A DNA stretch of 37,826 nt from Candidatus Polarisedimenticolia bacterium (GTDB taxonomy: Bacteria; Acidobacteriota; Polarisedimenticolia; Gp22-AA2; AA152). The notes beneath the pieces are model-generated. The model made no database searches and had not been told where the DNA came from. It saw nothing but the letters and a program-made list of their open reading frames with translations. The first letter of the stretch is position 1; each line of letters opens with the position of its first letter. Made by a program: the position numbers and the translations under genes. The DNA lies in the NCBI GenBank assembly GCA_035764505.1, contig DASTZC010000080.1, positions 1 to 37,826 on the forward strand, written 5' to 3'. Below are positions 1 to 28,209 of the stretch, in pieces.

Positions 1-681
1 GCGGATCGCCTCCAGGTCCACGACAGCCGGCAGATCCTCCACGTAAGGGGGGATGAAATCCTCGAGGTGCGTCGTCGAGGAGCGCAGTGCCGCCTCATAC
101 GCCATGCGTCGCACGCCGCGGTTCCCGGATTTCAGGAGGGAGTTGGCGCGCTCCTGGATCCACTGGGTCTCCTCGCTACCCGCGGGGCCGCCGTTCGGCG
201 GGTTGTACTTGATGCCGCCGTCTTCCGGCGGGTTGTGCGAAGGGGTGATGATGATGCCGTCGGCGAGGCCCGGCTCCCTGCCGCGGTTGCGAGTCAGGAT
301 GGCATGCGAGATGACCGGTGTCGGGGTTGCGCCGTCGTCGGCCTGAAGGATCGTCTCCACGCCGTTGGCCGCCAGGACCTCCAGGACCGTGCGCTGCGCC
401 GGGGCCGACAGGGCGTGCGTGTCCTTACCCAGCAGGAGCGGCCCGTCGGTGCCGCGGCTGCGCCTGAAATCGCAGATTGCCTGGGAGATCGCCAGAATGT
501 GGCCTTCGTTGAATGTGCCGCGCAGCGCCGAGCCCCGGTGCCCGCTCGTCCCGAACGAGACGCGCTGGGCGGGATCGTCGAAGTCGGGGCGACGCTCGTA
601 ATACTCCCGCTCCAGGCGCGAAGGGTCGATCAGCATCTCGGGGGGAGCGGGCTTGCCGGCCAAAGGTGAGAGAGGACTCAT
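1..681 (-). CDS. pgm: Phosphoglucomutase, alpha-D-glucose phosphate-specific (N-terminal part)
   Basis: Interconverts glucose-1-phosphate and glucose-6-phosphate in the cytoplasm. The reading frame starts at the ATG at 681 and stays open for exactly 227 codons to the window edge, so about 40% of a usual 545-residue protein is visible. It shows the family signatures FGTSGHRGS near residue 40, GKDTHALS, and ITPSHNPPEDGG, which contains the serine that is phosphorylated in catalysis, followed by IKYNPPNGGPA. The match to the E. coli Pgm type runs almost without gaps. It is divergent from the small exported protein genes starting at 1200. The ribosome binding site is weak. Its product feeds NDP-glucose synthesis, which links it to the trehalose operon at 4357-8532. 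The identification is firm; the 3' end lies outside the window. Confidence 0.95.
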   Translation of the reverse strand, partial: MSPLSPLAGKPAPPEMLIDPSRLEREYYERRPDFDDPAQRVSFGTSGHRGSALRGTFNEGHILAISQAICDFRRSRGTDGPLLLGKDTHALSAPAQRTVLEVLAANGVETILQADDGATPTPVISHAILTRNRGREPGLADGIIITPSHNPPEDGGIKYNPPNGGPAGSEETQWIQERANSLLKSGNRGVRRMAYEAALRSSTTHLEDFIPPYVEDLPAVVDLEAIR

Positions 682-1199
682 GCGCGCCGATCGCTTTCGC
701 CGGAAAGGGCCCGGGACGACGGCCCTGGACATGACACTCGAACTGGGCGCTCGATTCTGCTCCAGATAGGGTCGGGATCACAAGCCGCCGCTTCCGCAAT
801 GGCGATGCGCCGCTTTCCGCCTATCCTCCTGCATTGACAAGCCCATGAAGGGGTGATAGCTTGCGCGCCGCCGCTGAGATAATTGATTGGATTGGCTCTG
901 TTTCGAGCTCCTCACCTCCAGAGCCGGCCGCCGAACCCCCGAGGTCCAGCCGATGCTTCCCCCTGCCGCGACCGTGCCTCGCCGCATCGCCACGCAGCAG
1001 GGGTCTTCCTTCACACTCCTTGCCCTGAGGCCCTCCTGCCGTTACCGTTGCAGTGACCGCGAACAGGTGGAAGGCGCCTGTGGCGGGGCGTCGGCCGGCC
1101 CGGCGCCGTTGACCCGGTCCTTCGGCTTCGACGGAGCGCTCCCTGCCTGCGAGTCGGACAGGTCTGATTCCGAGCGCGCTCGGAGAAAAGGAGTTCCTC
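682..1199. other. 518-base divergent intergenic region
   Basis: No convincing gene lies between pgm and the exported protein at 1200. Open frames here on both strands have the Arg/Gly/Ala-rich composition of shadow frames and no ribosome binding site. It probably holds promoters for both flanking genes. A sigma70-like candidate is listed at 834-862. Confidence 0.5.
834..862 (+). promoter_or_regulatory. Candidate sigma70-type promoter
   Basis: A perfect -35 hexamer TTGACA (834-839) is followed after 17 bases by TAGCTT (857-862), which matches TATAAT at only three positions. It points toward the gene at 1200 but would give a leader of more than 320 bases, so its target is uncertain. Confidence 0.3.
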
Positions 1200-10214: not shown

Positions 10215-12503
10215 TCAGAAGCGGTCACCAATTACAAAGTAGACTTTGTGTTCGCCAGTTTCGGTCGTGCCCCAGGCGAAGAAGGCGGGGCCGAGCGGCG
10301 TCTGGGCCCCGAAGAAGAGCGAGCCTCCCATGGTCAGCGATTGCCAGGTGACCGGGTCGTCGCGGAAGTAGGCATTGCCTGCCTCGAACGAAATCCCGCC
10401 ATAGACGGCCGAGGTGAGCGGCCCGAGATCGAAGCGCGTCAGCTGCACATACGAGATGGCGCGGCCCACCACGCAGCGCTCCGCCCGCAGCTCGCCGAAC
10501 CCCAGCCCTGAAAGGTTCAGAAAGCCTCCCAGCGCGCAGGACGAGATGAACGAGACGGGTCCCGTGACCAGGGTCTGGCCGCTGAAGGAGGGCACCACGG
10601 TCACCCGCCCGAGGGTCAGGGCCAGGCTGGCGTCCAACCGTGCCAGGTCCCGGTCGGCATCCGCTCCCATCGACTCCGTCGAGTGGCGATAGAAGCCGTG
10701 GACCTCCGCCCCGTGGCGCGGGAAGACGGTGCTGTCGCGCGAGTCGACGTTGAGCTTGAACTGGCCTCCCCCATCGCGCTCGTCCTCATCGCCGACGAAG
10801 ATGTTCGGGCCGATAGAGGTGCTCGTCGTATTGTGAGCGTAGAAGGCGCCCAGGCGCACCTCCCAGTTGTCACCGATGACCCGGCCGACGTCCAGGCTCC
10901 CGCCCAGGGTGGAGATGCTCTCCTCGCTCACCCGATCGCCGTCCGCCCACAGGTAGACGTAATCGCGCTTCGTCTCCGCCGTGGGAGAGACGAACCAGCG
11001 CATCTTGTAATCGATCGGCTGGTAGAAAGAGGTGCGCAGCAGCCGCGTCTGACCGATCTGCGCGACGTTCTCCCATTCACCGCCTCGGCGATTGGCCGCA
11101 ATCAGCAGGTGGCGGAACGAAAAGGTGTAGTTGGCGTCGCCATGGAAGTCGTCCCAGAAGCTGGCGCCGAACTGCAGGCTGTTGCGACCGTAGGGCTTGG
11201 CGGGGATGTCCAGGTTGATGGTCCCTTTCCCATCCTGCCGGATGTAGGTGGGCCGGATGAGACCAAAGTAGTCGAGCCCGTAGAGACGCATCACCTCGTT
11301 GTTGAAATCGTCGATGTCGACCGACTTGCCCTCCGGGATCCTCAGGCGGCGGTCGATGATGCGGTCGTTGACCCAGCTGGAATTGGTGAAGGTCACCTCG
11401 TCCACCTTCACTTTCTCGACGTTGCGGCGCCGGTGGTGCTTCACGAACTCGTCCCACTCCGCCGGCGGCGCCGAGAAGCGCTTCAGGCCCTCCGTGACGG
11501 CACGGGCCGATTGCTCGCCGATGGCCATCGCATCGTTGACCTTGTCGAAGCTGATGAAGCCGATGTCCTTCAGTTCGGGGGTGATCAAAACGTCGCCGGG
11601 GCGCAGCTTCTTGATGTCGGCCACGCGGTTGGCCACGGCCGAGAAGCTGCTCCACTGGTTCATCACCGAGAACAGGGTGTCGATCTCCTCGCTGGTGATC
11701 AGCGGGCTGGTGATGTCGACGGCAATGATCGACTGCGCCCCGAGCGACTGGGCGATGCCGATCGGCAGGTTGGCCACCTCGCCGCCGTCCACCAGCAGCT
11801 TGCCGTCCAGCTTGACCGGCGAGAACATCCCGGGGACCGACATGCTGGCGCGCATCGCGGTGGCGAGGCTCCCCTTGTCGAGGATCACCGCCTCGCCGCT
11901 TCCCAGATCGAGCGCCACGGCACGGTACGGGATAGGGAAGTCGTCGAAGCTGGGCGACGTCTGGACGGCCATCTCCAGCGAGCGCAGGAGAAGCTCCAGC
12001 TGCTGCCCTCCGAAGATCGACGGCGGGATGTAGGGACGAAACCCTTTGAAGCGGAGCTTGCCGGGAATCAGGAAGGTTGCATCGTCCCCCTTGCGCCGGA
12101 AGGAGCGGTCGCGCCGCTCCACGGCATCGACGAAAACATCCTTCCAGTCGGTGGACTTGAGCAGCTCCTCGAGCTGGTCGGGGGAGTAGCCGGCGGCGTA
12201 GAGGCCGCCGATGATCGATCCCATGCTCGTCCCGACGATCAGGTCGGGATGGACGTGCAGCTCTTCCAGGACGCGCAGGACGCCGATGTGGGCGGCTCCC
12301 CGGGCTCCTCCTCCGCTCATGACCAGGGCGAGGCGGGGCCTGTTGGCACGCGCCCCCTTCGCCGCCGGAGCATCGCCGGCGGCTGCGCCGGCCGCGGTCG
12401 CTCCACCGCCGGAGGAATCCTGCGCCCGGACGGTCCCCATACCGGCGCACAGGAGCGCCATTGATACCGCGAGAGCCGTTGCGCCGCATCGCCGCCACAG
12501 CAT
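10215..12503 (-). CDS. Patatin-like phospholipase with POTRA and outer-membrane barrel (PlpD type)
   Basis: Protein of 762 residues. A signal peptide (MLWRRCGATALAVSMALLCA) is followed by a Gly/Ala-rich linker and a patatin domain (about 55-320). The oxyanion motif SGGGARG, nucleophile motif GTSMG with Ser93, and catalytic DGG with Asp239 are all intact. Around residues 355-410 is a POTRA-like unit (VKVDEVTFTNSSWVNDRIID and onward). The rest forms amphipathic strands of a 16-strand Omp85-type barrel, ending on the aromatic IGDRF. This architecture is type Vd secretion, in which the lipase passes through or stays on its own barrel. There is no long basic passenger linker, so it probably remains cell-attached. 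An SD-like GGAGG lies within a short inverted repeat upstream of the ATG. Confidence 0.9.
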   Translation of the reverse strand: MLWRRCGATALAVSMALLCAGMGTVRAQDSSGGGATAAGAAAGDAPAAKGARANRPRLALVMSGGGARGAAHIGVLRVLEELHVHPDLIVGTSMGSIIGGLYAAGYSPDQLEELLKSTDWKDVFVDAVERRDRSFRRKGDDATFLIPGKLRFKGFRPYIPPSIFGGQQLELLLRSLEMAVQTSPSFDDFPIPYRAVALDLGSGEAVILDKGSLATAMRASMSVPGMFSPVKLDGKLLVDGGEVANLPIGIAQSLGAQSIIAVDITSPLITSEEIDTLFSVMNQWSSFSAVANRVADIKKLRPGDVLITPELKDIGFISFDKVNDAMAIGEQSARAVTEGLKRFSAPPAEWDEFVKHHRRRNVEKVKVDEVTFTNSSWVNDRIIDRRLRIPEGKSVDIDDFNNEVMRLYGLDYFGLIRPTYIRQDGKGTINLDIPAKPYGRNSLQFGASFWDDFHGDANYTFSFRHLLIAANRRGGEWENVAQIGQTRLLRTSFYQPIDYKMRWFVSPTAETKRDYVYLWADGDRVSEESISTLGGSLDVGRVIGDNWEVRLGAFYAHNTTSTSIGPNIFVGDEDERDGGGQFKLNVDSRDSTVFPRHGAEVHGFYRHSTESMGADADRDLARLDASLALTLGRVTVVPSFSGQTLVTGPVSFISSCALGGFLNLSGLGFGELRAERCVVGRAISYVQLTRFDLGPLTSAVYGGISFEAGNAYFRDDPVTWQSLTMGGSLFFGAQTPLGPAFFAWGTTETGEHKVYFVIGDRF

Positions 12504-12732: not shown

Positions 12733-15700
12733 CTACGGGCAGGCCGCCGCGGCGGCGTCTATCTCCGCATCGCGCGATCCGACCAGACCGGCAGAGCCGT
12801 CGTCATAGCTGCCGGCATTGGAAACGGTGCCCGCCCGCAGGACGAACCACCACCCGGACCCGACGGCGGGCAGCGCCGCATGGCTGAAGGAAGTCCCGGC
12901 GGCATTGTTGGCCAGGCACTCCTGGGTCGCCGTGGTGAAATTCCCCGCCCCCGCCTGCAGCAGGGCGAGGTCACCACGCACCAGATCGTAGCGCGTGGCC
13001 CCCGGGACCGTCGTCCACCATAGCTGGCCGGCGGACGCACTTAGGAAGAACGGGGTGGTGAGTCCGGGGTCTCCCATCGTCACCTGGCCGATGCTGCCGT
13101 TCACGATGACCCTGCCACCGACGGCATACGCCTGGATCTTGAGGGCCTGGAGCGTTGGATCGGCGTTGATGGCCGCTGCCAGCGCGGCCGCCACATCCGC
13201 GGCCGTCTGTCCGGCCGCGGTGGGCACGGAGATCGTCCTTCCTTCCACGACCAACTGCGCCCCGCCCCCCTGCGGCGCTCCGGCCAGCATCAGATACTCC
13301 TCGAGATCGCAGCCGGCCGAGCAGCCGTCCCACGGCGCGGTGTCGCCCCGATCGCACTCCTCCGTCGGATCAAGCTCGCCGTCGCCGCACGAGACGGTCT
13401 GGAACTGTCGCATCATCTCGTGCTCTTCGTGCTCCAGGATGTGGCAGTGGTAGGCGTAGCGCCCCTTGTAGGTGTCGAATCGCGCGATGACCCGCAGGAT
13501 TTCTCCAGGGGCTACCATGGCGGTGTCTTTCCAGCCGTTTTCCTCCGCCGCGGGGGCTTGCGGCGAGCCGGTCGGGATGATCTCGCCGTTCGGTCCCTTG
13601 GTGAAGGCCTGGCGATCGAGAACCTGGAACATCACCAGATGCATGTGCATCGGATGGGAGACGCCCGAGTCGTTGATGTACCTCCAGATCTCAACCGTGC
13701 CGAGCTCTGGGTACTCGGTAATGTCGTGCCAGCCCAGCTCGTTGATCGCCCACATGGAGCGGCCGCAGCCGTCGGTGCCCGACTGCTTCAGGCGCAGGTC
13801 GCGGGTGATCACCGCCGAGGCGGGGTTGATGTGCGTGATGGGCCGCAGCGTAGCGGGGATCGGGTCGGTGTCGCCGGCGGCGGCGGTCACGCGGAACTTC
13901 ATCACCTGCGTCACGTCGACCGTCCCGTTGGGGAACGGCGCCGGCGCATCGTTGCGCAGCAAGATCTCTACGCCGGTGGCGAAACCGGCGAAATCGACGA
14001 CGACTTCGTAGCGTTCCCCCGGCCCCAAGGTGAGCGAGCCCACGCCGGTCGCCGGCGCTTCCAGCAGACCTCCTTCCGTGCCGATGACGGTGAAGTTCAA
14101 CGAGCCCGAAGGCGGCACCAGCGACAGGGTGTAGACGCGCGAGGTCGAGCCATTCAAGAGCTTGAAGCGGTACTTCCCCTTGGCGACGTCGAAGTAAGGC
14201 CAGATCTTCCCGTTGACCATGATCTTGTCGCCGAAGAAGTGGTCCACCCAGGCGCTGGGATACTTGAGCGAGCCGTCGGGATTCAGCTTCTTGTCCTGGA
14301 GCACCAGCGGCACCTCATAAGCTCCCGCCGGCAGGTTGATGGCGTCTTCCACCGAGTCGCGGATGAGGTAGGCTCCCGCCAGCCCCATGTAGACGTTCAG
14401 GCGCGTGATGCCCAGCGCATGATCGTGGAACCAGATGTATCCCGCCTGCTGGTCGTTCGGATAGGTATAGGAAACGGGAGGATCTCCCGGCAGGAAGGTC
14501 GATTCCGGGTAGCCGTCCACCGCGGCCGGGACATGGCCGCCGTGCAGGTGCGGCACCACCTTGGCCCGGTTCTCGGCGCCGTCGATGCAGACGTTGCCTT
14601 GCGCATCCTGCTGCACGTCGACGTCGAGGTAGTGATCGTCGCGCCGCGGCACGTTGGTCGCGAAGTCGCGGATGTCGTTGACCCAGTTGACGGTCACCGG
14701 GAAGCCGGTGCGCGCGACGATGATGGGGCCCGGGGTCCACAGCGGCGCGACCCCGTCGTGGTAGCCCCAGACCCGCGTCGGCGGCAGCTGGCTGTGCAGC
14801 TGCTGCTCGAACTCGCGCATCGTCAGGGTGTAGGTCGCCGCTCCCCCGATCGTCCCGGTGACCGGCGTGGCGATCGGCGGGATGGGCAGCGCATCCATGT
14901 AGGGGGTGAGCTGGATCGGGCAGTAGGTGGAGGCGCAGGTGGTGCCGTCGCCCTGGTAGCTCCCGCCGGCGCCCGTGCAGCTGCTCTGCGAAACCTCGCT
15001 GCAGGTGCCGTTGGGGGCGCAGCAGGCGCCGGTGGCGATGAAGCAGGGATTGGGGGAGCAGGAGGTGCCGTTCCCCTGAAAGAGGCCGCCGAGGGACAGG
15101 CAGCCCGTCTGCGTCTGCAGCGAGCAGGACGCGCCCTGGCAGCAGCCGCCGGTCGCTACCTGCGGCGTGTAGTCGATAATCAGGCGCGGCTTCCAGGTGA
15201 CGCCGCCGGTTGTTCCGGTGTTCTCACGCGTGGCGAAGCGCTTGCTGGTGTCGACGACCGACTCCGTGCCGATCACGATCCAGCCGTAGTTCTGGGACGG
15301 CGTATTCAACCACGATTGCACGTCGGCCACCATGCCTGAAGTGGAGCCCCAGGTGTAGAAGCCGACGTTGCCCACCGAGCGCGTAGCGCTGGCGGTCAGC
15401 GAGTAGTCTCCTCCGGGAAGCGACCAGAACTGCGTCGAGTAAAAAGTATGATGCCAGGTGGCATCGCCGGTGGTCGGCGGCTCGCCGCGCCCCTGCTGGG
15501 AGTTCCCGGTGTTGGAAGTCCCCTCGCCCCAGTTGGACAGCAGGCGGTTCAGGCTCACGTTGAAACTGGTGGTGAGCTTGACCTTGTCGGCGTAGAGGAT
15601 GAGCTGGGCGCTGTTGATGACCGAGCCCGCCGGGATGTTTCCCGCGACGTTGAAGGCGAGCACCCCCCGTCGGACGGCAATCCGCACTCCGGTGGTGCAA

Positions 15701-15909
15701 TCGGCGTCCGCATCGTGGACCTTGCCGGTGAAAAAAGTCGGGCCGGCTCCGTCGCTCTTGTCGGCGCACGCATCCTGGGCGATCGGCTCGTAGAGTGTAT
15801 TGTCCTTGACGGGATTCAGCGTGACAGTGTCGGCCGCCGCCGGCAGCGGCAGCAGCGCCGCCGCGATCGCAAGGCCAGCCAACTTGGTGAGCAGTTTTTG
15901 GATCCCCAT
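12733..15909 (-). CDS. Modular secreted multicopper oxidase with DNRLRE domain and '...CP' tail
   Basis: Protein of 1058 residues. The start is set at 15909 because GAGGGGGG lies just upstream and the signal peptide (MGIQKLLTKLAGLAIAAALL) starts there; the frame extends open to 15993. Order: DNRLRE domain (about 27-250, WGEGTS, GMVADVQSWL); two Cys-rich repeats of the CCxxxxxC...GGxxxGxGTxC type; a CotA/bilirubin-oxidase-like cupredoxin region with copper motifs HLHGGH (His454, His456), WFHDHALGI, HPMHMHL and YHCHILEHEEHEMM (His821, Cys822, His823, His827); a CGDGELDPTEECDRGD motif; and a C-terminal beta domain ending AAAACP. All ten His and the Cys of the copper sites appear present. It is divergent from another DNRLRE protein. 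Substrate (phenolics, bilirubin, Mn) cannot be told. Confidence 0.9.
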   Translation of the reverse strand: MGIQKLLTKLAGLAIAAALLPLPAAADTVTLNPVKDNTLYEPIAQDACADKSDGAGPTFFTGKVHDADADCTTGVRIAVRRGVLAFNVAGNIPAGSVINSAQLILYADKVKLTTSFNVSLNRLLSNWGEGTSNTGNSQQGRGEPPTTGDATWHHTFYSTQFWSLPGGDYSLTASATRSVGNVGFYTWGSTSGMVADVQSWLNTPSQNYGWIVIGTESVVDTSKRFATRENTGTTGGVTWKPRLIIDYTPQVATGGCCQGASCSLQTQTGCLSLGGLFQGNGTSCSPNPCFIATGACCAPNGTCSEVSQSSCTGAGGSYQGDGTTCASTYCPIQLTPYMDALPIPPIATPVTGTIGGAATYTLTMREFEQQLHSQLPPTRVWGYHDGVAPLWTPGPIIVARTGFPVTVNWVNDIRDFATNVPRRDDHYLDVDVQQDAQGNVCIDGAENRAKVVPHLHGGHVPAAVDGYPESTFLPGDPPVSYTYPNDQQAGYIWFHDHALGITRLNVYMGLAGAYLIRDSVEDAINLPAGAYEVPLVLQDKKLNPDGSLKYPSAWVDHFFGDKIMVNGKIWPYFDVAKGKYRFKLLNGSTSRVYTLSLVPPSGSLNFTVIGTEGGLLEAPATGVGSLTLGPGERYEVVVDFAGFATGVEILLRNDAPAPFPNGTVDVTQVMKFRVTAAAGDTDPIPATLRPITHINPASAVITRDLRLKQSGTDGCGRSMWAINELGWHDITEYPELGTVEIWRYINDSGVSHPMHMHLVMFQVLDRQAFTKGPNGEIIPTGSPQAPAAEENGWKDTAMVAPGEILRVIARFDTYKGRYAYHCHILEHEEHEMMRQFQTVSCGDGELDPTEECDRGDTAPWDGCSAGCDLEEYLMLAGAPQGGGAQLVVEGRTISVPTAAGQTAADVAAALAAAINADPTLQALKIQAYAVGGRVIVNGSIGQVTMGDPGLTTPFFLSASAGQLWWTTVPGATRYDLVRGDLALLQAGAGNFTTATQECLANNAAGTSFSHAALPAVGSGWWFVLRAGTVSNAGSYDDGSAGLVGSRDAEIDAAAAACP

Positions 15910-16147
15910 GTTCCCCCCCTCGCCAGATCCGGTGAGCGCGCCGGGCCCGGCAAAGTGTCGCTCTCGTATCGCCGCGACGGTCGCCGTGCGCATCCGCCGG
16001 CACCGTCATTTTCGTGTCGAGCAAGTTGGGTGCCACGGGGCACGGAACGTGCATTGATGGATTGGCGTGCGTATCGGAGATAACCGCGGGAGACGAAATT
16101 TGACCCGCGGCCGGACGGGGTGGAGATTGTTGAGGAGGAGCCAGGCG

Positions 16148-20644: not shown

Positions 20645-23600
20645 TCAGGGACAGGAAGGGATGCCGGAGTCGCGCAGGATTGTTCCGTAGGTTGCCGTCG
20701 CACATGAATTCCTGGCGCGCGAGAGGTACCAGAAAGCGAACCCGGAAGCCGGACCGGAACGCGAATCGAGGTAGGTTGTTGCCGTGGACGACTGCAGGCA
20801 GCTGGCTGCTGAAAAGATGATGCCCGTCGAGGGGCCCAGCGAGCCGGAAGCGAGATCGTAGAGCGTGCCCGGACCGGCGGATGTAGCTTGGCCTTGCCAC
20901 GAGGGGTTGGCGGGGCTGGAAGAGGTGAGATTCAAGCCGCTCACTTCCGCCGGAGACGCCCACACCGCTGGACTGGCGTCATTGCAGTCGTTGCCGCCGC
21001 ACAGGGCATCGGGATGTCCATCGGCATCGAGATCCCGGGGCACATGCAGGCAGCCCGACGCGCCGGCGCAGGCATCGGTCGTGCAGCCGTTGGCGTCGTC
21101 ACAGAGCAGGCCGCCGCCTTCGTCGGCCAGGGTGGAGCAGTCGTCGTCGAGGCCATTGCAGGTCTCGGTCGTGCCCGGGTGGATCGCTGCGGCCGAATCG
21201 TTGCAATCTCCGGCACACTCGCTGAAACCGTCTCCATCATCGTCAATAGACTGCCCGTAGATGAACCGTCCCCCGTTGTTGAGAAGGGCCGAGGTGCCCG
21301 CCGGTCCGACGCCGCCCCAGACGATCATGAAGGTGCCGGTCCATACGGCGGCATGCCCGTATCGGGGCGAGGCGGCGCCGTCGGTAGAGGTCGAAATCCA
21401 GGAGTTGCCGACCGGATCATAGATGGCACCCATGTTGAAGATAGGCTCTCCGAAATCGATGAGGATGCCGCCTCCCCAGACGATCATCCGTGATCCGGTC
21501 CAGATGACCGAAGTGCCAGCGACACCGTAAAGCGGCGGAGGGGCAACCGGGGCCAGCCACTGGTCCAGGCTGGGGTCGTATCGGCCACCGGTGAACGTGG
21601 TGGGCATGACGATCATGAGGCTTCCTGTCCATACGGCCGCCCCGATCGCGACGTCATGCACAACCGGCGCGTTGTTCATCGAGGTCGGAGTCCACGAATC
21701 GGTCGAGGGCGTGTAACGACCGCCGGTGTTCACGATGATGCTGCCGCTGGATCCGCCCCACACGATCATTTCAGTCCCCGTCCAGACGGCCATCGCATCC
21801 TGACGGGCCTCGGGAGCTGCGGTCAGGGAGGTCGGGGACCAGCTGTCCGCGGCCGGGTTGTAGGCCGCCCCCGTCCTGAGGCGCACGGTTCCGTTGAAGC
21901 CGCCCCAGACGATCATCCTCGTCCCGGTCCAGACGACCGAATGCCTGCCTCGCGCTTCGGGTGCGCCAACCGATGACGTGGTCGTCCATTGGTCGGAGAT
22001 CGGATCGTAGCGCGCCCCGTCGTTGAAGTAGGAAGCGTCCCTTCCTCCCCAAACGATCATCGAGCCCCCGGCCCAGACGGCCGAGTTGTCGCGGCGCGGC
22101 GCCGGGGCGTTGATGGTGGTCGTCGGGCTCCAATGGTCCAGGGCCGGATCGTAGCGCCCTCCCGAATTGAGGGGTCCGAAGTTCACAACGCCGCCCACGC
22201 CTCCCCAGACGATCATGAGATTCCCTGTCCAGACCGAGGAGAGCCGGTACCGGTACGTGGGGGCGCTCGATTCCGAAGTGGGAGTCCAGGAGTCGGTCGT
22301 CGGGTCGTACCTTCCGCCGCTCGCGACGTCCCAATAATTCAGGGCATCGTATCCTCCCCAGACCACCATGCGGCTGCCGGTCCAGACCGCGACGTGGAAG
22401 CTGCGAGGGCTGGGCGCATTGACTGTGGAAGTGAGCGTCCACGAGTCGGTGACCGGATCGTATTTCCCACCGGTATTCAAATCGGCGCCTGCCGACTGCC
22501 CTCCCCAGAGGATCAAGCGGTTACCTGCCCAGACGACAGTAGACCACGTCCGGTTCAACTCCGGGGCCCCGGTCCTGCTCATGGGAGTCCAGGCATCCAT
22601 GGAGGGATCGTAGCGCCGCCCCGCCGTCGTCGCATCGGGAGACAGCACCAGCATCAACGAGCCGGTCCAGACGGCCGGCCCGCTCGCGGGTGCGCCGGTG
22701 GTGGAGATGGGCGCCCAGCTGTCGGTCGAGGGGCTGTACCTCCCTCCGTTCGCGACACCGCCCCCCCAGACAATCATCTCGGCGCCAGTCCACACGGCGC
22801 TATGGTTGTACCTTGCCGATGGCGCACCGGTGGTCGAGATGGGCGCCCACGTGTCGGCCGATGGGTCATAAAAGGCACCCGTGTTGAAAACAGAGCTTCC
22901 CTGGCCGCCCCAGACGATCATCCTCGTCCCGGTCCATATGGCGGAGTGTTGCGATCGCGGGGCAGGGGCGCCACTCGAAGCCGTGGAAACCCAGGTGTCG
23001 GTCACGGGATTGTACTTCCCACCGTCGGACATCGAGCTGCCGCTCCTGCCTCCCCAGACAATCATGTCGGTTCCGGTCCATACGGCCGTGTGATTCATGC
23101 GCGGCGACGGGGCGTTGTGGAGAGACAGGGAGAGCCAGGTGTCGGTGGCGGGGTCGTAACGCCCGCCGCTGTCCGAGTAGCCCCAGAGCTCGCCCGCAAT
23201 CCCGCCCCAGACGATCATGACGCTCCCGGTCCAGACGGCCGTCGCTGAGTGACGTCCATGGGGGAAATCGTCCAGCGAGCCGTTGTCCCAGGTGTTGTCG
23301 GTAAGGCAGCTCTGGATGGAGGGGTCCTGCCGGCCTGGGATGACGTCTCCGGGTATGTCGTCGCCGACTCCATGCACCGACTCGATGCTCATGCTGTCTT
23401 CGATCCCTGCCCACCAGGCCTCCAGCCGAAGCTTCGGAAAGCTTCGCAAGGGTGGGGCACCGCCGTGGACAACCGCGGATCCGCGCTCACGGGGACTCTC
23501 CCGGAGCACGAAGTCCTCGCGCTCTTCGGTGACGGTCATGGCCCACGGTCCATGCGCATCGCGCGCTGCCTCCGCGAGACGTCGTGTTTCCGCATGAATG

Positions 23601-24073
23601 CGCTGATCGAAGGCGAAGAAGTTGCCGACGAGGCGCTCCGCCAGCGCCGGGCGGGCCAGGCATTCTTCGATGAGAAACGGATCGTTGTTCAGTGCGGAGA
23701 ACAGCTCTCGCAACCGCTCGGGCATGCGGCTCCCGTGTTGCATGCGGTCCAGCTCTGCCCGGAGCATCGTTGCAGTGATGGGAGTTTTCCAGAACTTATC
23801 GAGAGCGGCGCTGTGCCTCAGATACTTTCTGACCTTCGCTTCGACGAGGGCATGGGGAACCGCCTGCTCGAATGGGAACGTGCTGCCGATTTGATGGGAG
23901 TAGTAGACCCGCTCGATCGCCTCTTGCGCCCGGACGCGCTGCTCGAAAGTCAGATCGCGCGCCAGGATCCCAGGTGCGAACAGACCGGCGAAGGCCAGTA
24001 CAGCCCCGGTTCCGACGACCTGGCGCAGCCTGATCGAGCCGAGGCCATGGTTATTTCCCAGCAGGCTTTTCAT
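20645..24073 (-). CDS. Giant secreted kelch-repeat protein with MopI-like motifs and '...CP' tail
   Basis: Protein of 1142 residues. The ATG at 24073 opens a signal peptide (MKSLLGNNHGLGSIRLRQ then VVGTGAVLAFAGLF); the frame is open to a TTG at 24109. Residues about 40-170 form a helical domain (LTFEQRVRAQEAIERVYYSH ... LRELFSALNNDPFLIEE) resembling the N-terminal helices of SurA/parvulin-type proteins, a likeness noted by eye only. Next come 14 kelch-like repeats of about 48 residues (consensus AVWTGxxMIVWGG ... GGRYDPxTDSW), then DDDGDGFSECAGDCNDS and CNGLDDDC calcium-loop-like motifs, DLDADGHPDALC, and the tail WYLSRARNSC ... SGIPSCP. No catalytic residues are recognised; a surface adhesion or binding role is inferred. 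Divergent from the M36 protease gene. Confidence 0.88.
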   Translation of the reverse strand: MKSLLGNNHGLGSIRLRQVVGTGAVLAFAGLFAPGILARDLTFEQRVRAQEAIERVYYSHQIGSTFPFEQAVPHALVEAKVRKYLRHSAALDKFWKTPITATMLRAELDRMQHGSRMPERLRELFSALNNDPFLIEECLARPALAERLVGNFFAFDQRIHAETRRLAEAARDAHGPWAMTVTEEREDFVLRESPRERGSAVVHGGAPPLRSFPKLRLEAWWAGIEDSMSIESVHGVGDDIPGDVIPGRQDPSIQSCLTDNTWDNGSLDDFPHGRHSATAVWTGSVMIVWGGIAGELWGYSDSGGRYDPATDTWLSLSLHNAPSPRMNHTAVWTGTDMIVWGGRSGSSMSDGGKYNPVTDTWVSTASSGAPAPRSQHSAIWTGTRMIVWGGQGSSVFNTGAFYDPSADTWAPISTTGAPSARYNHSAVWTGAEMIVWGGGVANGGRYSPSTDSWAPISTTGAPASGPAVWTGSLMLVLSPDATTAGRRYDPSMDAWTPMSRTGAPELNRTWSTVVWAGNRLILWGGQSAGADLNTGGKYDPVTDSWTLTSTVNAPSPRSFHVAVWTGSRMVVWGGYDALNYWDVASGGRYDPTTDSWTPTSESSAPTYRYRLSSVWTGNLMIVWGGVGGVVNFGPLNSGGRYDPALDHWSPTTTINAPAPRRDNSAVWAGGSMIVWGGRDASYFNDGARYDPISDQWTTTSSVGAPEARGRHSVVWTGTRMIVWGGFNGTVRLRTGAAYNPAADSWSPTSLTAAPEARQDAMAVWTGTEMIVWGGSSGSIIVNTGGRYTPSTDSWTPTSMNNAPVVHDVAIGAAVWTGSLMIVMPTTFTGGRYDPSLDQWLAPVAPPPLYGVAGTSVIWTGSRMIVWGGGILIDFGEPIFNMGAIYDPVGNSWISTSTDGAASPRYGHAAVWTGTFMIVWGGVGPAGTSALLNNGGRFIYGQSIDDDGDGFSECAGDCNDSAAAIHPGTTETCNGLDDDCSTLADEGGGLLCDDANGCTTDACAGASGCLHVPRDLDADGHPDALCGGNDCNDASPAVWASPAEVSGLNLTSSSPANPSWQGQATSAGPGTLYDLASGSLGPSTGIIFSAASCLQSSTATTYLDSRSGPASGFAFWYLSRARNSCATATYGTILRDSGIPSCP
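21254..23254 (-). repeat. Fourteen tandem kelch repeats arranged as 7 + 7
   Basis: About 2 kb of imperfect tandem repeats, mean period near 143 bases. Repeats 1-7 and 8-14 align one to one. Repeats 5 and 12 both lose WGG (MLVLSP, MIVMPT). Repeats 3 and 10 both read TRMIVWGG with TGA.Y.P.AD, 4 and 11 share EMIVWGG and PSTDSW, and 1 and 8 share the longer loop ending SGGRYDPA. Confidence 0.85.
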
Positions 24074-27200: not shown

Positions 27201-28209
27201 CGGAGCGGTGAGCGTTCCCATGGCGCAGCGCGGCAATTACGACGACCGGCCGAACACCTCGGCCTCCGACGACGTCGAGAGCGGCACCCCGCGCTGGACG
27301 GTCTCGCACAACCTGTCGCTGGACGGCTCCGAGCCCTGGACGCGCCTCGAGGTGACCCCTTCGGATCACCGGTGGCTCGGGCCCGATTCAAATGAGCCTG
27401 CCGATCACTACCTCGTTTCGCCGTCGCTGAATGTCGCCGCCACCGGCAGCTTCAGCTTCACTTTCAGCCATCGTTACTCGTTCGAGGCCGATACCGTCCC
27501 CACCTTCTACGACGGCGGGGTCATCGAGATCAGCAACAACGGCGGGACGAGCTGGACCGACATCGGGGCCTCGGCTTCGCCCGGCTATACGGCCGTCCTG
27601 ACGAGCGGCGGCGGCAACCCCCTTTCCGGCCGGTCGGCGTACGCCGGCACCAGCCCGGGATATCCCGCATTCTCCACGGTGACGGTGAATCTCGGCACGG
27701 CTTATCAGGGGCAGATCGTCAAGGTACGCTTCCGCATCGGCACCGATGCCAGCGTCGGCGCTCCCGGATGGGAGATCGACAACCTGGCCTTCTCCAACAT
27801 CACCAATCTCCCATTCAATGCGCTGGTCCCCGACGGTCATGTCTGCATCGATACCGACACCGACGGGGTGCCCGACATCGACGACTGCTCTCCCGGAAAC
27901 TCGTCGCTCTGGGCGGCTCCCTCCGAGGCACTCAGCCTGACGCTGGATGCGCCGGGTGCGACGATCCTGAGCTGGCTGGTCCCGTCAAGCCCGGGAGGGA
28001 ACACGGTCCTCTATGACCTGCTGCGCAACACGACGGCTTCCTTTGTCTCTCCGACCTGCGTCGAGTCGGGAGATACCAACCTGTCTGCGGTCGATGCCAC
28101 GAATCCGGTCGCGGTGCTGTTCTACCTGGTCCGATCGCGGAATGCCTGCGGCAGCAATCTCGGGACGAGCTCCGCGGGAGCGCCCCGCGCCGCCCCGCCC
28201 TGCCCGTAG
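24265..28209 (+). CDS. Secreted M36 fungalysin-like metalloprotease with PA insert and '...CP' tail
   Basis: Protein of 1314 residues. A signal peptide (about 1-28) is followed by an FTP/PepSY-type propeptide region (to about 290). The M36 catalytic domain begins near QLFFDVNFFHDWFYDSGFNE, is interrupted by a PA domain (about 505-630, GKIAFLDRGNCSFTVKVKNA), and resumes with the zinc motif HEWGHY (His644, Glu645, His648) and GEGWGDF (Glu671, third ligand). Downstream are a CARDB-like beta domain (VLDAGETGTLTITLRNTGST), a MAM/jelly-roll-like domain ending GWEIDNLAFSNI, a DTDTDGVPDIDDC loop (from 1196), and the tail VLFYLVRSRNACG ... APPCP shared with the kelch and oxidase proteins. All zinc ligands are intact, so it should be active on extracellular protein. 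Confidence 0.93.
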   Translation: MGARARVPILILLSALGCPILGGTPLFARDLPNIDALSAKGRTRKSFQFPPGLSKDLVRSDRSLQTHEILGLPTFLWVSEGARMGGADSPRRRGLGPEAAAREHLGRFASLYDLEPGDAASVELGSIHDTGRGAVIVSFRQRVNGVPVFRDEIKMIMGRDLDLLAISGFLAGGPARAARGAPPRFDLEGREAAARAYHDLTGAAVGPLDFLPVGRGGSDYELVHLRDEVAAMLDKPLLQPARLRKVFFHLPDRLEPAYYVELDAGSPGANESDYYAYVVSAADGSILFRNNLTVRDAFSYRVWALTSTPFLPADGPQGTVGTPHPTGTLDGYQAPFVAPSLVTLQNGPISTNDPWLPAGSTVTTGNNTDAYADLASPDGFSAGDLRATTTSTNTFDRTYNTALAPASSANQQMAAITQLFFDVNFFHDWFYDSGFNEVAGDAQTNNFGRGGLGNDSIKAEAQDFSGRNNANMSTPADGARPRMQMYVFDGIGARALNINAPAAIAGTYAVGVADFGPLTFNLTNSVVLVNDGTAPATDACTTPFVNAGALSGKIAFLDRGNCSFTVKVKNAQLNGAIGAIVANNSAGILDMGGTDATITIPSVLVSLDDGNTIRAQLGVGVTANLFRGAAVDRDGTIDNEVVAHEWGHYISNRLIGDANGLSNQQGGGMGEGWGDFHALLMAVRSEDALIPANANFNGVYAMGAYVNSGGDNGNQGNQGYYFGFRRVPYSTDMTKNPLTFHHISNGVPITGAPVDFGADGTNNSEVHNTGEVWATMLWECYASLLRDTARLTFDEARDRMRDYLVAAYKMTPSQPTVLEARDAVLAAALAGDNQDFLLFAQAFAKRGAGIRAVAPSRYSLTQQGVVESFTAGGDLSFVSATVDDNQIYCDRDHVLDAGETGTLTITLRNTGSTALSATTATVSSSNPSVAFFPAGPISFPSSQPFGNTTATVAIQFGAVSGIQSIPLTISFNDSGFALPGAVSVPMAQRGNYDDRPNTSASDDVESGTPRWTVSHNLSLDGSEPWTRLEVTPSDHRWLGPDSNEPADHYLVSPSLNVAATGSFSFTFSHRYSFEADTVPTFYDGGVIEISNNGGTSWTDIGASASPGYTAVLTSGGGNPLSGRSAYAGTSPGYPAFSTVTVNLGTAYQGQIVKVRFRIGTDASVGAPGWEIDNLAFSNITNLPFNALVPDGHVCIDTDTDGVPDIDDCSPGNSSLWAAPSEALSLTLDAPGATILSWLVPSSPGGNTVLYDLLRNTTASFVSPTCVESGDTNLSAVDATNPVAVLFYLVRSRNACGSNLGTSSAGAPRAAPPCP

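Follow-up and report, generated by a model that had tools for sequence, protein, structure and literature searches.

Proteins in which 14 repeats form two rings are already known from the WD40 family: WRAP of Nostoc punctiforme (PDB 2ymu) has 14 WD40 repeats arranged in two rings (PMC8458387). Among the papers accessible to us, none on a 14-bladed propeller was found. A kelch-like ring has been described from Verrucomicrobia: in PYL67592.1, the first of the seven blades is split (Pereira and Lupas 2022, PMC9218822). This ring is single and disrupted, its blades are 76% identical, and the accessible part of that publication describes no two-ring form. PYL67592.1 is plausibly the single-ring form of the family described below.

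The kelch protein studied here is encoded within a stretch of 37,826 nucleotides (the window) from a Candidatus Polarisedimenticolia bacterium. Like WRAP it has 14 repeats, in two rings that are predicted in this case; the repeats of WRAP are nearly identical WD40 repeats, whereas those of the window protein are kelch blades with about 50% identity to each other. Recently amplified, near-identical repeats as in 2ymu, which are not needed for a double propeller, were not found in the window protein. WRAP is not known to have a chaperone-like N-terminal domain. The best structural match to the model of the window protein is galactose oxidase (AA5), an enzyme with a copper-radical site and a Tyr-Cys cross-link: it has a seven-blade kelch-class ring, the ring fold alone was compared and the identity is about 15%. 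The kelch domains of human BTB-kelch, KLHDC and LZTR1 proteins, which are eukaryotic ubiquitin-ligase adaptors, have the kelch motif and the ring fold in common with the window protein but are single rings in the matched structures, unlike the two predicted rings. New in the family presented here are single-ring relatives that share the N-terminal domain, the apparent insertion of ring 1 in the seam of ring 2 and a SurA/PrsA-like predicted fold of that domain.

Gene layout and the N-terminal domain

The kelch open reading frame lies at 20645..24073 on the minus strand and encodes 1142 amino acids. The presence of 14 kelch repeats, as stated in the initial annotation, is borne out by the translation, in which 14 W[TA]G..[ML] repeats can be read, by the blade model and by Pfam, where the scores place the protein among the kelch proteins (PF24681 with 292 bits at a cut-off of 50; PF01344 with 57.9 bits at a cut-off of 20.1). 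The features of the gene are:

23960..24073, minus strand: putative signal peptide (residues 1-38, MKSLL start); hydrophobic stretch AVLAFAGLFAPGILA read by eye, low pLDDT
23555..23959, minus strand: family-conserved N-terminal helical domain (residues 39-173) with SurA/PrsA-like predicted fold; from copies in its own and other genomes and the fold of the L110 domain
23366..23554, minus strand: residues 174-236, forming a shortened second part of the N-terminal domain with beta strands and a conserved WW helix; from the alignment
23276..23311, minus strand: strand D0, SCLTDNTWDNG (residues 255-266), with conserved Cys256, predicted to close ring 2; from the blade model and structural alignments
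22274..23269, minus strand: predicted ring 1, kelch blades 1-7 (about residues 269-600); from the blade HMM, with KLHDC2 and NS1-BP kelch chains aligning contiguously
22541..22678, minus strand: blade 5, without WGG; from the translation, with the same state in blade 5 of paralog C77/L035
21254..22273, minus strand: predicted ring 2, kelch blades 8-14 (about residues 601-940), blade 14 with strands A-C only; from the blade HMM, with KLHDC2 chains contiguous over 601-946
21512..21640, minus strand: blade 12, without WGG; from the translation, with WG retained in blade 12 of paralog C77 (WTGSEMLVWGEG)
21119..21208, minus strand: putative metal-binding motif of the MopE type (residues 956-985); Pfam PF11617, 40.5 bits at a cut-off of 27
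20648..21046, minus strand: C-terminal domain (residues 1010-1142) common to many proteins of the same genome; from own-genome matches on many contigs, pLDDT <40

Judged from its sequence, the protein is probably exported. The C-terminal domain has about 130 residues, ends in CP and is also found in the neighbouring M36 peptidase (27838-28170) and in many further proteins of the genome; this peptidase is encoded divergently and is named myxosortase-dependent by its NCBIfam model. The shared domain could have a role in sorting or attachment. Elsewhere in the window, the minus strand encodes a patatin-like protein with an Omp85-type domain (10215-12503) and a large multicopper oxidase (12733-15993).

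The second half of the N-terminal domain is about 50 residues short in the window protein when aligned with L110, L143 and other members. The domain of L110 was modelled with 17 homologs including the window protein (pLDDT 86.6). When this model was compared with known structures by VIA, the best 13 of 50 rows were SurA, PrsA and PPIase-type chaperones with Z scores of 5.0-6.8, followed by a Z of 3.3; each of these Z scores alone is in the chance range, and it is the uniformity of the list which suggests that the domain resembles the SurA/PrsA chaperone fold. Foldseek returned nothing under E 0.001 for the domain (best E 0.03), Pfam searches with 12 members found SurA_N in one member only (E 0.024, short of the cut-off) and no rotamase match, and profile searches of Pfam, NCBIfam and PDB gave no significant named family. 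The likeness to SurA and PrsA is one of predicted fold: no sequence match is significant, and the window protein has a shortened second half. Built into the protein, the domain might assist folding or docking during export.

The two predicted rings and their seam

The AlphaFold model of the window protein, built with 12 homologs, has a mean pLDDT of 70.5 and a pTM of 0.53; pLDDT is mostly 80-95 in the propellers and 48-65 in D0, and residues 942-1142 are unreliable. Two separate seven-blade rings are predicted, in agreement with what the initial annotation had expected of a structural model: in VIA alignments, kelch chains fit contiguously to residues 269-600 and to residues 601-946, and the 14 blades would accordingly be divided between two rings of seven. 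Ring membership was deduced from the first and last residues of the aligned ranges. Galactose oxidase, with its seven blades, aligned over 257..954 (Z 30.5, rmsd 3.5, 330 residues), and LZTR1 and others over 257..940 or up to 954; the alignments that begin at residue 257 have their last residue in ring 2, to which strand 257-263 is thus most simply assigned. Strand D0 is also indicated by the blade model, whose positions 30-48 match directly before blade 1 in many members. Blade 7 has a tight C7-D7 hairpin (GGRYDPTTDSWT) and is therefore complete, with no strand needed from outside. In the predicted arrangement, ring 1, with all seven blades complete, would sit inside the seam of ring 2, and D0 would provide blade 14 with the fourth strand that it lacks.

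The cysteines next to the seam differ between members. Of 14 single-ring forms, 13 have a Cys just before D0 (C..DTW) and a second one that follows strand C of their final blade (GGRYC). Among the double-ring forms, 27 have the D0 and the blade 14 Cys, 30 have the D0 Cys alone and six have neither; a Cys in blade 7 was found in L042 only. In many members the pair would staple the seam by a putative disulfide. The window protein has the D0 Cys (residue 256) and lacks the partner in blade 14.

In L042 (G000:C130:38500-45500), blade 7 is interrupted between its strands C and D by a MopE-rich insert of about 127 residues (ORF residues ~687-826), and a Cys follows strand C of this blade, as though ring 1 closed separately. 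No clear second case of such an insert was present among the matches listed; MopE motifs and blades were found elsewhere.

The L042 insert, which falls exactly where strand C of blade 7 would continue into strand D, and the blade 7 Cys of L042 beside its D0 Cys are what would be expected if the two rings stood in plain tandem, with D0 closing blade 7 and D7 closing blade 14. We regard this arrangement as unlikely: the C7-D7 turn of the window protein is tight, the alignments that begin in D0 finish in ring 2, and the D0 Cys is paired with blade 14 and not with blade 7 in 27 proteins. A single closed ring of 14 blades, which would equally require seam cysteines on D0 and blade 14, is hardly credible, as seven-bladed galactose oxidase, like further kelch chains, aligns with either half as a closed unit, the single-ring relatives have seven blades (twice eight) and the known natural range is 4 to 12 blades (PMC8458387). 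Nesting of ring 1 in the seam of ring 2, if true, would mean that a propeller was doubled without a new closing seam.

Likeness between the two halves and blades lacking WGG

Sequence matching the window protein was found in all 41 genomes searched (31 genera) and the N-terminal domain in 28 of these; the window's own genome has 13 copies of the N-terminal domain and 120 pieces that match the window protein. The blade model finds 14 blades in 50 near-complete ORFs of a set that was gathered by similarity to the window protein and is biased towards long members; of the two other near-complete ORFs, L058 is a degenerate member and L088 has a spurious extra blade match. Because the blade number is exactly 14 in nearly every complete member, across some 30 genera, the 14-blade plan is old and does not stem from a recent duplication in the window gene: the family is old and much expanded, and its two-ring plan predates the paralogs. 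The nearest paralog (C77/L035) is 55% identical to the window protein and appears to be split across contig ends of G000, with query residues 16-152 on C5 (L036) and 152-1142 on C77; several kelch genes stop at contig ends, probably because the repeats break the assembly.

The initial annotation described the repeats as standing in exact i/i+7 register. Among the 14 blades of the window protein, the mean pairwise score is indeed 115 at offset 7 and 93-99 at offsets 1-6 (permutation p = 1.5e-4; p = 2e-4 when corrected for any offset; p = 0.002 without pair 5/12), and this excess ranks first in 51 family members (0.082, next 0.030). It is carried by five pairs: residual similarity is 0.08-0.19 for 1/8, 2/9, 3/10, 4/11 and 5/12, while pairs 6/13 (0.025) and 7/14 (-0.042) carry no signal and are not part of the register; only in pairs 1/8 and 2/9 does i+7 rank as the best partner from either side. 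Loop lengths, which the pairs were said to share, show no significant agreement (p = 0.22), and repeat lengths differ between repeats 4 and 11 (41 and 51 residues) and between 6 and 13 (49 and 53 residues). The maximum-likelihood tree of the 14 blades does not support this pairing either: no i/i+7 pair has meaningful bootstrap support, although 49 columns are weak evidence in either direction. Silent codons are shared at about 0.43 between blades, with no excess at offset 7 (0.427, compared with 0.428 overall).

The extra likeness of blades 1-5 to blades 8-12 would most likely reflect old intragenic copying between the rings, by conversion or unequal exchange; it is read as such an event because the nearest paralog has no such likeness (p = 0.32 for the offset-7 signal). 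A block tree joins blades 1-5 of the window protein with blades 8-12 (86/76 support), and alternative topologies are not rejected. Copying of blades 1-5 into blades 8-12 is favoured by these sequence comparisons of one protein but not proven. If the two rings bound similar partners, selection acting on their equivalent positions could also leave an offset-7 excess in the protein and none at silent sites; we consider it improbable as the source of the likeness, since same-position blades across the family are no more alike than different-position blades, and saturated silent sites would also be compatible with old copying.

WGG is missing from repeats 5 (WTGSLMLVLSPD) and 12 (WTGSLMIVMPTT) and from no others, and the translation thus confirms the earlier observation of two such repeats seven apart; both read WTGSLM. 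Two random blades of 14 have a 7.7% chance of being seven apart. Among the 714 blades of 51 proteins, 98 are without WGG; these losses are distributed evenly among positions 1-13 (chi-square p = 0.27) and are not coupled at offset 7 (10 pairs, against an expectation of 9.8). Blade 5 of paralog C77 also lacks WGG and groups with blade 5 of the window protein (95/93) and not with blade 12, indicating that the loss in blade 5 is older than the split of the two genes, and blade 12 of C77 reads VWGEG, with WG retained. The proposal that a WGG-less blade was kept as a functional site is not supported by this lack of preferred position and of pairing, nor by the WG in blade 12 of C77, and was rejected on the counts from the 51 proteins. 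Both blades would be products of ordinary blade drift.

The initial annotation had combined these observations into a tandem duplication of an entire propeller of seven blades, with the deviant fifth blade kept in both copies as a functional site. Such a duplication, taken as one recent event in the window gene, would be consistent with the strongest offset-7 excess among 51 proteins, with the common WTGSLM and missing WGG of blades 5 and 12 and with the two predicted rings. It is very unlikely nevertheless, and was rejected on the family-wide count of 14 blades, the absence of offset-7 signal in C77, the silent sites and the trees, including the grouping of blade 5 with its C77 counterpart; the pairs 6/13 and 7/14, which carry no signal, and the WGG losses, with neither preferred position nor pairing, also speak against it.

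Overall, we hold it to be rather probable that the product of the window gene is exported and belongs to an old kelch family, with two rings of which ring 1 is nested in the seam of ring 2, old copying between the rings and WGG-less blades that have drifted, serving as a recognition scaffold. Such a scaffold would be at the surface or in the periplasm, with variable blade loops binding partners. The roughly 13 copies in this one genome suggest that uncultured Acidobacteriota have a large set of exported scaffolds for binding.

Single-ring relatives and the gain or loss of rings

A scan of named genomes for the N-terminal domain identified members in Verrucomicrobiota, including Chthoniobacterales, and in Acidobacteriaceae. 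The single-ring forms of these groups consist of D0, six full blades and a last blade with strands A-C, which makes seven blades; two single-ring relatives have eight blades instead. In the tree of the N-terminal domain, both main branches contain 14-blade forms, and midpoint rooting suggests that, as far as this tree goes, 14 blades may be ancestral to seven. The 14-blade L111 is sister to the 7-blade L129 (99/97), indicating that whole rings were gained or lost. L111 was tried as a positive control for a recently duplicated ring and showed no offset-7 excess (p = 0.13). Since forms with 7 and with 14 blades coexist behind a common N-terminal domain, the gain and loss of whole rings is directly testable. 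For the family as a whole, we propose only tentatively a propeller inserted in the seam of another, a Cys pair that replaces the C-D turn, gain and loss of whole rings, blade exchange between rings and a built-in SurA/PrsA-like domain.

In L125 (Verrucomicrobia), a single-ring form with eight blades, blades 3 and 4 as listed are nearly identical, indicating that single blades are gained too. L119 and L121 are near-identical kelch genes in metagenome-assembled genomes labelled Verrucomicrobia and Acidobacteria gp2, respectively, which reflects either a recent transfer or a binning error.
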